This document shows positions 38,535 through 40,084 of a stretch of DNA of 64,000 nucleotides, one piece after another. Under the pieces are notes generated by a model, which saw nothing but the letters and a program-made list of their open reading frames with translations, was not told where the DNA came from and searched no databases. The position numbers and the translations under genes were made by a program. Source of the stretch: Seongchinamella unica. GTDB taxonomy: Bacteria > Pseudomonadota > Gammaproteobacteria > Pseudomonadales > Halieaceae. How positions within the stretch are numbered: position 1 is the stretch's first letter; every line of letters starts with the position of its first letter. Where the stretch lies: contig NZ_SMSE01000001.1 in NCBI RefSeq assembly GCF_004354085.1, forward strand, positions 1,107,724 to 1,171,723, in the 5' to 3' direction.

Positions 38535-39113
38535 ATGGGCAGGGACTACGCCAAAACGGGCAAAAGCGGACGCAAGCATCCCCCGGCGAGCAAGAAAACA
38601 GCGGCCCGCGGGCGCAACACCAATCCTCAGGGAAGCAGCGGCTGGCGCTGGTACGGTGCCGGGGTAATCACCGGTGTTTTCCTCAGTTTCCTCGCCTACC
38701 TTGGCAGCCTCCCTCCGACAGAGGCCCCGGGCGCCGGGGGCCACACCACCCCCGCAGCGGAAGAACCGGCACCGCCGAAACCTCGCTTCGATTTTTACAC
38801 CATGCTGCCAGAGCAGAGCCTGGAGGAAGAGCCGCCGGCCAGTGAACCGGCCCGGCCATCGGCCTCTGCTGCCCCGCGGGAATACTACCTGTTACAGGCG
38901 GGGTCCTTCCGCCAGCGGGAGGACGCGGATCGGCGCCGGGCTGAATTGCTGCTGCTGGGACTGGAACCGGCGATCGAGGAGAGTAATGGCGAGAACGGCC
39001 GCTGGTTCCGGGTCTACCTCGGGCCCTTCGACTCCCGCTCAAAGATGTCCAAAGCCCGCAGCCTGACGGCAGCGCAGAATATCGACACCTTGTTGTTGAA
39101 GCGCGGCGGTTGA
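38535..39113 (+). CDS. SPOR-domain membrane protein (FtsN-like)
   Basis: The 192-residue protein has a basic cytoplasmic N-terminus (about 1-34), one transmembrane helix (about 36-56, WYGAGVITGVFLSFLAYLG), a Pro/Ala/Glu-rich periplasmic linker and a C-terminal SPOR domain (about 115-190: YYLLQAGSFRQREDADRRRA and WFRVYLGPFDSRSKMSKA), which binds denuded glycan at septa. It starts three bases after argS and corresponds to the FtsN-like gene between argS and hslV in Pseudomonas. It is shorter than E. coli FtsN. Confidence 0.88.
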   Translation: MGRDYAKTGKSGRKHPPASKKTAARGRNTNPQGSSGWRWYGAGVITGVFLSFLAYLGSLPPTEAPGAGGHTTPAAEEPAPPKPRFDFYTMLPEQSLEEEPPASEPARPSASAAPREYYLLQAGSFRQREDADRRRAELLLLGLEPAIEESNGENGRWFRVYLGPFDSRSKMSKARSLTAAQNIDTLLLKRGG

Positions 39114-39138
39114 TGCCAGTTAGTAACTAACCACCGGT

Positions 39139-39253
39139 CTGCGGGGCTGTATCTCCCTTCCCGGGACCGCCAAAAAGCGTACGTCCATGTACAGGCTCGG
39201 CCTCGGGCGTCCCTGCCCTCGGACGCCCCGGGAAGGGAGATACAGCCCCACAG
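39139..39253 (+). repeat. Palindromic repeat element, copy 1
   Basis: Arms at 39139-39165 and 39227-39253 are complementary over 27 bases (26 Watson-Crick pairs plus one G-T position), containing CTGTATCTCCCTTCCCGGG. The 61-base interior has a 36-base core (39166-39201, starting ACCGCCAAAAAGCGTACG) and a small hairpin (GCGTCC 39207-39212 with GGACGC 39221-39226). The core is identical, in reverse complement, to 39404-39439 in copy 2. Confidence 0.9.
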
Positions 39254-39349
39254 CCCTCCGTCAGCTCCATAATCGCCTCTCTGGCGGGTGATCAGTATCG
39301 ATGAGCGTTTCGACGAAATGCCCCAGGTCAAATGTGTGTATCTGGCAGA

Positions 39350-39469
39350 GGTCCGGAGAGTTGAAGGATCTTTTCCGGGGCGTCGGACGACAGGACGTCG
39401 TCCGCCGAGCCTGTACATGGACGTACGCTTTTTGGCGGTCCCGGAAAAGATCCTTCAACTGTCCGGACC
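39350..39469 (-). repeat. Palindromic repeat element, copy 2 (inverted)
   Basis: Arms at 39351-39379 and 39440-39468 are complementary at 28 of 29 positions, containing TTGAAGGATCTTTTCCGGG; one more pair extends the stem to 39350/39469. The interior has the same 36-base core as copy 1 on the minus strand (39439-39404) and a small hairpin (GGACGAC 39385-39391 with GTCGTCC 39397-39403). Arms share only the CCGGG end next to the core with copy 1. Confidence 0.9.
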
Positions 39470-39486
39470 GTGTAGCTTGAAAGAAC

Positions 39487-39544: not shown

Positions 39545-40084
39545 ATGGAACAATACAGAGGCACGACCATACTCTCGGTCCGCCGCGGCAACAGCGTGGT
39601 CATCGGCGGCGACGGCCAGGTTTCCATGGGTAATACCGTGATGAAAGGCAACGCGCGGAAAGTGCGACGCCTGCACAAGGACCAGGTGCTGGCGGGGTTC
39701 GCCGGCGGCACCGCCGATGCATTTACCCTGTTCGAGCTGTTTGAAGCCCAACTGGACAAACACCAGGGCCACCTGGTGCGGGCAGCGGTTGAGCTGGCCA
39801 AGGCCTGGCGCACCGAGCGTGCCCTGCGCCAGCTGGAGGCGCTGCTGGCCGTGGCCGACAAGGAAACCTCACTGATCATCACCGGTAACGGCGATGTCAT
39901 CGAACCGGAAGACAACCTGATTGCCATCGGCTCCGGTGGCCCCTTTGCCCAGTCCGCCGCCCGCGCGCTGCTGGACAATACGGACCTCGACGCCCGCACC
40001 GTGGTTGAGAAAGGCCTGGCTATTGCCGGCGACATCTGTATTTACACCAACCACAACCGCACCATCGAAGAACTGACTTTTTAG
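39545..40084 (+). CDS. hslV: ATP-dependent protease peptidase subunit HslV
   Basis: HslV forms the dodecameric proteolytic core of HslUV and uses an N-terminal threonine as nucleophile. The sequence is MEQYRG followed by [19 protein letters not shown], so the catalytic residue is Thr7 after a six-residue propeptide; in E. coli it is Thr2. The rest ([29 protein letters not shown]) is standard. The product is 179 residues from the ATG at 39545. It is nine bases upstream of hslU. Confidence 0.96.

Follow-up and report, generated by a model that had tools for sequence, protein, structure and literature searches.

Structure of the locus

The window, by which is meant the whole stretch of 64,000 nucleotides of Seongchinamella unica DNA analysed here, carries two large structured elements between a gene whose product we take to be SPOR-like in its C-terminal region and a gene that is presumably hslV (Table 1). 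Copy 1 lies on the minus strand and copy 2 on the plus strand, so that the two RNAs diverge back-to-back. Each copy forms a three-way junction of 128-129 nt, in which an outer stem (P1) encloses two hairpins with A(N)GGA loops. As described in an earlier note on this DNA, positions 39166-39201 are the exact reverse complement of positions 39404-39439, and the arms of the two copies are unrelated although this 36-bp core is identical. The long inverted arms which the note had drawn as stems of 27-29 bp are real, and by the register of the alignment they comprise 30 pairs in each copy. A sigma-70-like promoter was sought at the pair and in its spacer and an intrinsic terminator at the pair; neither was found, and both candidates were dropped.

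Table 1. Features of the element pair and its flanking genes (window positions).
Feature	Position	Strand	Basis or remark
Upstream gene	38535..39113	+	Stop codon 19 nt ahead of copy 1 (ORF list, gene context)
Copy 1, TwoAYGGAY element, 129 nt	39133..39261	-	Covariance-model match G000:C1:1146856-1146984:-, 134.2 bits
Copy 1 outer stem P1, 3' arm	39136..39165	-	Alignment and pair counts
Copy 1 hairpin 3	39169..39196	-	Loop AUGGAC at 39183-39188; AC/GU closing, as in CsrA SELEX ligands
Copy 1 hairpin 2	39201..39222	-	Loop AGGGAC at 39209-39214; tandem G-A mismatches in stem
Copy 1 outer stem P1, 5' arm	39227..39256	-	Alignment and pair counts
Spacer separating copies 1 and 2, 83 bp	39262..39344		
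Copy 2, TwoAYGGAY element, 128 nt	39345..39472	+	Covariance-model match G000:C1:1147068-1147195:+, 131.4 bits
Copy 2 outer stem P1, 5' arm	39350..39379	+	Alignment and pair counts
Copy 2 hairpin 2	39384..39404	+	Loop AGGAC at 39392-39396
Copy 2 hairpin 3	39409..39436	+	Loop AUGGAC at 39417-39422
Copy 2 outer stem P1, 3' arm	39440..39469	+	Alignment and pair counts
Downstream gene	39545..40084	+	Start 72 nt past copy 2; matches in 8/8 genus genomes

The same intergenic site varies widely among the genomes of the genus. The gap measures 431 bp in the genome of the window (G000) and 429 bp in G006, where it holds a pair with unrelated arms; it is reduced to 154 bp in G005 and 210 bp in G007, which by eye retain remnants of elements, and to 71 bp in G003 and 50 bp in G004, which represent empty sites. 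A weak covariance-model match is present at the site in G002. The sequence upstream of hslV in G005 (L024) looks, by eye, like a deletion scar in which the left arm of copy 1 is joined to the right arm of copy 2, the core and the spacer being missing.

Identity and distribution of the elements

The earlier note knew of no named family with this layout, a statement overturned by Rfam: the TwoAYGGAY model (RF01731) matches copy 1 with 42.5 bits (E 1.8e-5) and copy 2 with 41.8 bits (E 2.5e-5), in both cases over positions 1-168 of 168, the outer stem included. These scores, like those of all other copies in this genome, fall below the gathering score of 43. The best copy in the genus reaches 52.7 bits and is found in G006, the sole one of eight genus genomes above the cut-off. 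Over the 13 sites of this genome first collected (see below), RF01731 gives 12 matches of 29.0-42.5 bits at 10 sites, and none at E 5 at the other three (L009, L013 and L019). A class-wide scan of 274 genomes under strict filters detects the motif at E 0.001 in 18, with 13 of them passing the cut-off. Both window copies carry AYGGAY-type loops (AGGGAC/AUGGAC and AGGAC/AUGGAC), with the qualification that the second loop base in the genus copies may be any base or absent, a pyrimidine not being required. In hairpin 2, 8 of 18 copies, including copy 1, show two non-standard pairs side by side; copy 2 has standard pairs at this place. It is thus nearly certain that the two structures are TwoAYGGAY copies on opposite strands.

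TwoAYGGAY was first published in 2010 without a function (Weinberg 2010, PMC2864571), and the later literature, as far as its available parts go, assigns none. The 2010 table rates it as a likely RNA that is not cis-regulatory (PMC2864571), and a later source, in the part available, describes a poorly conserved outer stem and tandem G-A in one stem, and already proposes CsrA binding (PMC4333381). The type given in Rfam is Cis-reg. The identity of the elements is therefore ordinary, a known motif lying just under its cut-off; what is unusual is the biology, as the elements are multicopy, often paired and probably mobile-derived, with a stem kept by paired change.

A DNA search of the genome with the 361-bp pair as query returned the 13 sites, out of which 18 copies were sorted by core similarity (at most 5 mismatches in 33). 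All are 128-129 nt long with arms that align without indels, and all 18 have long inverted arms, which differ between copies. A covariance model of the set, the construction of which the earlier note had proposed along with the search for further cores, finds 28 copies in this genome (E <= 0.01) and 132 matches in seven of the eight genus genomes (E 0.01), with none in G003 and one in G004. In the family, matches were obtained for 58 of the 120 genomes sampled and for 22 of the 28 genera. The core pattern was also found in 112 stretches of the genome collection; the 80 of these that were listed belong to Seongchinamella, Mangrovimicrobium, Halioglobus, Parahaliea and metagenome-assembled genomes named only as Gammaproteobacteria, the four genera all being Halieaceae. 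Carriage by phages or plasmids was rejected, since viral contigs contain no exact core pattern and copy 2 has no match in phages or plasmids at E 0.01. The analyses below use 128 genus copies, that is, the 132 matches less five of G007 plus one of G001, or equally 134 matches from which three on the opposite strand and three duplicates (loci L023 and L026) were discarded, and 59 copies of other genera (62 matches less three on the opposite strand). The central proposal of the earlier note thereby holds. Its refuting outcome, a core that occurs nowhere else or further copies lacking inverted arms, did not arise, and the number of copies is far from what chance would give. The elements form a dispersed class whose arms change in sequence and keep their structure, and their source was probably a non-autonomous mobile element.

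Placement among genes

Genes were called with our own codon-usage script trained on the window, not with a standard gene finder. The genus contains 95 sites, 33 of which hold two copies within 500 bp, and the order of these pairs is minus-plus in 32, minus-minus in one and plus-minus in none. Both neighbours were called at 93 sites. Of these, 90 are downstream of one or both neighbouring genes, with 45 flanked by convergent genes, and three are flanked by divergent genes. As a background, the window has 8 convergent and 7 divergent among 57 adjacent gene pairs, or 1 and 7 among the 18 pairs with a gap of at least 50 bp. Elements between convergent genes nearly always oppose the gene end closest to them: 61 of 64 are antisense to it, and 40 of these lie within 60 nt of it. 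Their RNA must therefore originate from the more distant gene or from a promoter not seen here. Tandem contexts follow no such rule. Placement is looser in other genera, where the plus-minus order is seen at 3 of 17 multi-copy sites and divergent genes flank 9 of 41 sites; in one genome of the sister genus g6 (G051) they flank 8 of 21, a result not expected if the elements acted purely as 3'-UTRs.

One explanation of this arrangement is that the elements are insulators or unusual terminators: a sense copy placed before the stop codon of the neighbouring gene would block antisense read-in, and a pair would protect both genes. The nearly invariable minus-plus order and the antisense position close to the nearest gene end are what it would lead one to expect. 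It is nevertheless unlikely, as the flank profile of the 128 genus copies shows a weakly A-rich tail past the stem with no U-tract, no terminator was called at the window pair, and neither the tandem contexts nor the plus-minus sites of other genera conform to it. It also leaves the conserved A(N)GGA loops unexplained.

Loops and candidate CsrA sites

Two C-A(N)GGAN-G loops are present in 109 of the 128 genus copies, one in 18 and none in one, and the spacing of the loops is 23-27 nt in 98 of the 109 two-loop copies. The fuller form AC-A-N-GGA-N-GU occurs in 24 of the 28 copies of this genome and in 75 of 76 copies of genus g6, and less often in G006 (6/22), G007 (5/12), G002 (6/19) and G001 (4/33). 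In the available part of the literature the CsrA SELEX consensus is RUACARGGAUGU, mostly presented in hexaloops with AC/GU pairing, and a CsrA dimer bridges sites separated by 10-63 nt, doing so best when the distance exceeds 18 nt (PMC7652899). The exact consensus is found in 2 of 28 copies here and in 17 of 76 in g6. Judged from sequence, the elements thus have the makings of CsrA sites, with GGA in hairpin loops and two sites spaced within 10-63 nt.

A CsrA gene is present in all eight genus genomes, including those without the element; as both G003, with no copy, and G004, with one, have CsrA genes, the element is dispensable. The chances that CsrA is the binding partner of the two-hairpin element seem about even. 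The idea itself is not new, having been put forward earlier for TwoAYGGAY (PMC4333381, in the part available), and titles and opening lines of abstracts yielded nothing on point that links MITEs or transposable elements to CsrA. An RsmZ-like sRNA (RF00166) was also considered as the CsrA antagonist of the genus and rejected, as none of the eight genomes has a match above the cut-off and weak matches also occur in 8 of 14 control genomes. Sub-threshold RsmZ-like matches of 26-29 bits are located at G003:C1:1306391-1306510, G001:C1:4015146-4015282 and G007:C308:21846-21985, the best of them in G003, the genome without TwoAYGGAY copies.

Inheritance of arms and cores

The earlier note had proposed that the arms are generated at each site rather than inherited with the core. 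Flank comparison provided 65 orthologous same-role element pairs, 62 of which, those without G004, entered the identity test. The mean identity of orthologous arms is 0.54. It drops to 0.45 both for non-orthologous copies of the other genome (p about 2e-8) and for copies of one and the same genome (p about 1e-7). An identity of 65% or more in both arms is reached by 7 of 65 orthologous pairs and by 8 of 2456 random pairs; one site shared by G000 and G005 is nearly identical, one shared by G002 and G007 shows paired drift, and at one further orthologous site the arms are wholly different between flanks that are 93-94% identical. These comparisons of sequence support the view that arms are, on average, inherited with the site. 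That arms are not inherited with the core does hold within genomes of the window's genus, where cores are alike and arms unshared, and fails elsewhere, as dispersed copies in g6 share both. Arms serving as guides or copied from genome sequence were rejected as well: a 20-mer of each arm of the two window copies has no other place in the genome at up to 2 mismatches, and one and two places at 3.

The cores behave differently from the arms. Mean core identity is 0.709 between orthologues, 0.680 between non-orthologues (p 0.025) and 0.715 within a genome, so that, over all genomes, the difference between paralogues and orthologues is not significant (p 0.08), and paralogues exceed non-orthologues (p 8e-8). 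Paralogous cores are more alike than orthologous ones between G000 and G002 (p 0.014), while the reverse is seen for G006/G002 and G002/G007 (0.80 for orthologues versus 0.71 and 0.69). A genome-wide pull on cores is thus present between some genomes only. The highest arm identity within a genome, 0.78, is that between the two members of one G005 pair (L040); the members of a G001 pair (L073) have arms 0.73 alike, and such similarity indicates that some pairs may have arisen by inverted duplication.

Several sites show further rearrangement. Loci L034, L058, L096 and L108 constitute one orthologous site at which the orientation in G000 is opposite to that in G006, G002 and G007, either through inversion of the core inside the palindrome or because different members of a former pair were lost. 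An insert of about 17 nt (CCGGCCGGCGCTCCGGG type) on the 3' side of hairpin 2 is common to copies in six genus genomes (L031:1455-1593, L042:1558-1696, L087:3604-3743, L056:1533-1674, L059, L060, L061, L068, L082, L085 and L101). A second short insert (GAGCCTGCCCCGC..ATCGGG type) is located in the AUGGA/AGGA loop of L035, L043, L106 and L109 and also inside units of genus g6 (L188, L201, L202 and L230); it is perhaps a mobile mini-hairpin within the RNA element.

A mobile carrier and paired change in the sister genus

In genomes G051 and G092 of genus g6 many copies are carried by a MITE-like unit roughly 184 bp long, with ends like GGTAGTGGCTCAGTTTGAAATTTGG and its reverse complement. The 8-bp sequences flanking these ends match at 7-8 positions in 9 of 18 end pairs (three exactly), as against 4 of 306, none exact, when the left flank of one copy is set against the right flank of another, and 0 of 18 at each of the four neighbouring offsets of 1 or 2 bases. 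The matching flanks are a target duplication. One of the 18 end pairs (L219) encloses no RNA core, and at L219, L227 and L238 of G051 the MITE-like end pair or one of its ends is present and the core pattern absent. The end-pattern search of the two genomes, based on end spacing in loci reaching 1.5 kb to each side, found ends 65-215 bp apart or belonging to two neighbouring copies, and no parent transposon. Neither terminal inverted repeats nor a target duplication are seen in the flank profile of the 128 copies of the window's genus, where mobility is therefore presumed. A mobile origin of the elements is likely, and the counts of the target-duplication test make it somewhat more so.

Most dispersed copies in g6 have both core and arms in common; L110, L114 and L115 combine the same core with other arms. 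The bursts were selected through a motif in the arms, which takes in 22 of 28 copies in G051 and 24 of 25 in G090, so that copies with other arms are left out of the following counts. Paired changes outnumber one-sided ones in both bursts, with 88 against 29 in G051 (21 copies, 630 cells) and 105 against 58 in G090 (24 copies, 720 cells). Transversions, for which there is no route through a G·U intermediate, make up about half of the paired changes: 55 of 106 in G051, counting the shifted L111, and 58 of 105 in G090. Paired change amounts to 14.0% per pair in G051 and 14.6% in G090, whereas cores differ pairwise by 4-4.5%. In the outer flanks of the G051 and G092 copies 197 of 1383 bases are off consensus (93 transitions, 104 transversions), a figure of 14.2% that underestimates flank divergence because it comes from the alignable flanks alone (29 and 31 of 45 copies). 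The arms have diverged through paired changes roughly as fast as the flanks. Copying of one arm onto the other with equal chance in either direction predicts exactly this, paired change at the neutral rate, and fast compensatory selection could match the flank rate by coincidence. Multi-base template-switch tracts were discarded as a source, as paired changes are not clearly clustered: at lag 1 there are 18 observed against 18.2 expected in G051 and 26 against 20.5 in G090 (p 0.05; L111, whose arms are shifted by one base, is left out of these counts and of the totals of paired and one-sided changes, and kept in the divergence and core figures). Given the underestimated flank figure and the weak or absent clustering, arm-to-arm copying stays an inference. 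The bursts provide a measured case bearing on the long-standing problem of how extended RNA stems alter their sequence and remain paired.

It could still be argued that the element is a purely selfish non-autonomous mobile element, without cellular function, whose arms are made anew at each insertion. Copies in one genome of the window's genus have no clearly common arms, the orthologous site with wholly different arms and the g6 copies with the burst core and other arms would fit such a history, and the MITE-like unit with its target duplications would suit a selfish element. Yet orthologous arms are inherited on average and most dispersed burst copies share theirs, so that generation of arms per site is contradicted; in addition, core and strand-specific RNA pairing (see below) are constrained long after insertion. 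This explanation is rather improbable.

The outer stem is maintained as RNA

In the alignment of the 18 core-sorted copies all 30 pairs of P1 have changed on both sides, and standard pairs occupy 94.1% of arm cells, compared to 62.9% in shuffled and 37-42% in slid controls. The covariation noted earlier was taken to imply a folded DNA or RNA, a choice that can now be made. In a DNA stem G·T and A·C are expected to be equal, since each is the other read from the opposite strand; a large excess of G·U over A·C on one strand hence indicates that the stem is kept as RNA rather than as a cruciform in DNA. The TwoAYGGAY strand has 233 G·U against 21 A·C (3818 arm cells of the 128 genus copies), a ratio slightly biased by the preference of covariance-model pairing for G·U. 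The corresponding two-sided binomial p of about 2e-46 treats cells as independent, which arm cells are not, so that it is to be taken as rough. The 18 core-sorted copies, less biased through their sorting by core though drawn from sites found with the whole 361-bp pair, give 24:1. The excess is independent of role (minus members of pairs 65:2, plus members 67:7, single copies 101:12), is at least 5-fold in each of seven genomes and 11-fold overall, and recurs in the 59 copies of other genera (68:2). In agreement, folding is more stable for the sense strand than for the antisense strand in 123 of 128 genus copies, 17 of 18 core-sorted copies and 72 of 76 copies of genus g6. We are accordingly confident that the outer stem is selected as RNA, on the TwoAYGGAY strand, as far as sequence can indicate. 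A count of G·U against A·C thus points, without an experiment, to the strand that is the RNA.

A palindrome acting at the DNA level, of the REP/BIME kind or bound as a cruciform by a protein, with any RNA being incidental, would account for the 28 intergenic copies, the frequent inverted pairs and the bias to convergent genes. Intergenic inverted pairs biased to convergent genes are the typical placement of REP/BIME. A duplex or cruciform has no preferred strand, whereas G·U exceeds A·C 11-fold, and the loops are kept as A(N)GGA in most copies; the cruciform was rejected on the strand bias, and the DNA-level reading as a whole is strongly disfavoured and very improbable. That the window pair is merely a local inverted duplication of one palindrome, as its identical inverted cores and the similar arms of the L040 and L073 pairs might suggest, is refuted as an account of the class by the 28 dispersed copies in the genome and the matches in 58 of 120 family genomes, and has virtually no probability left.

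Functional interpretation

Taken together, the sequences portray the elements as mobile-derived RNAs, located mostly downstream of genes and often between convergent ones, which probably bind CsrA. As a whole, the account that we favour, with somewhat better than even confidence, is that the TwoAYGGAY pair consists of old mobile-derived insertions serving as untranslated CsrA-binding RNA modules. The window elements would be such insertions, retained in the untranslated part of read-through transcripts of the flanking genes. The two hairpins of an element may bind one CsrA dimer, and thereby titrate CsrA or mark the transcripts, and the long stem might cap, protect or help to process the RNA end, although this assignment of the exact role of the stem is doubtful. 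The differing arms of the copies would follow if pairing alone is selected and changes reach both arms, either by copying of one arm onto the other in a DNA hairpin or by fast compensatory substitution.

A more specific version can be offered tentatively, and is less probable still than the proposed role of the stem: TwoAYGGAY would be a MITE-borne, CsrA-binding mobile RNA whose 30-bp stem is kept perfect by arm-to-arm copying and which has been domesticated as back-to-back pairs. Under this mobile-RNA reading each arm mutation would be either copied or erased with equal chance, giving paired change exactly at the neutral rate, and the back-to-back pairs would supply both convergent transcripts with a CsrA-binding 3' module. 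Since genomes can hold many copies and sister species offer empty sites, the function of TwoAYGGAY is directly testable.

Comparison with known systems

The elements share with TwoAYGGAY, in the published descriptions available in part, the three-way layout, AYGGAY-type loops, tandem G-A, a gammaproteobacterial host and a variable outer stem. Absent from the available parts of that literature are the many copies per genome, the back-to-back pairs, the placement downstream of genes and the MITE-like carrier of the sister genus. Like MITEs, the unit of G051 and G092 has terminal inverted repeats, 8-bp target duplications and a length of about 184 bp; unlike them it carries a structured RNA as cargo, shows no visible ends in the window's genus and was seen without a parent transposon. 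REP/BIME are likewise short, palindromic intergenic repeats that occur as inverted pairs with a bias to convergent genes, while the elements described here differ in an arm sequence so unconserved that all 30 pairs vary, in strand-specific RNA pairing and in a two-hairpin core. With CsrB/RsmZ-type sRNAs the elements have in common GGA in hairpin loops, several sites per RNA and a spacing suited to the CsrA dimer, and differ from them in having two sites each, in their dispersed copies and in that neither a promoter nor a terminator was found. Template switching has been published as a source of paired change in stems (PMC8794818), and the paired stem changes seen here are alike; according to the available part of that study, it concerns rRNA and microRNA genes and loop inversion is a product of the mechanism, whereas here the stems belong to dispersed repeats, with their flanks as a rate control and no clear multi-base clustering.
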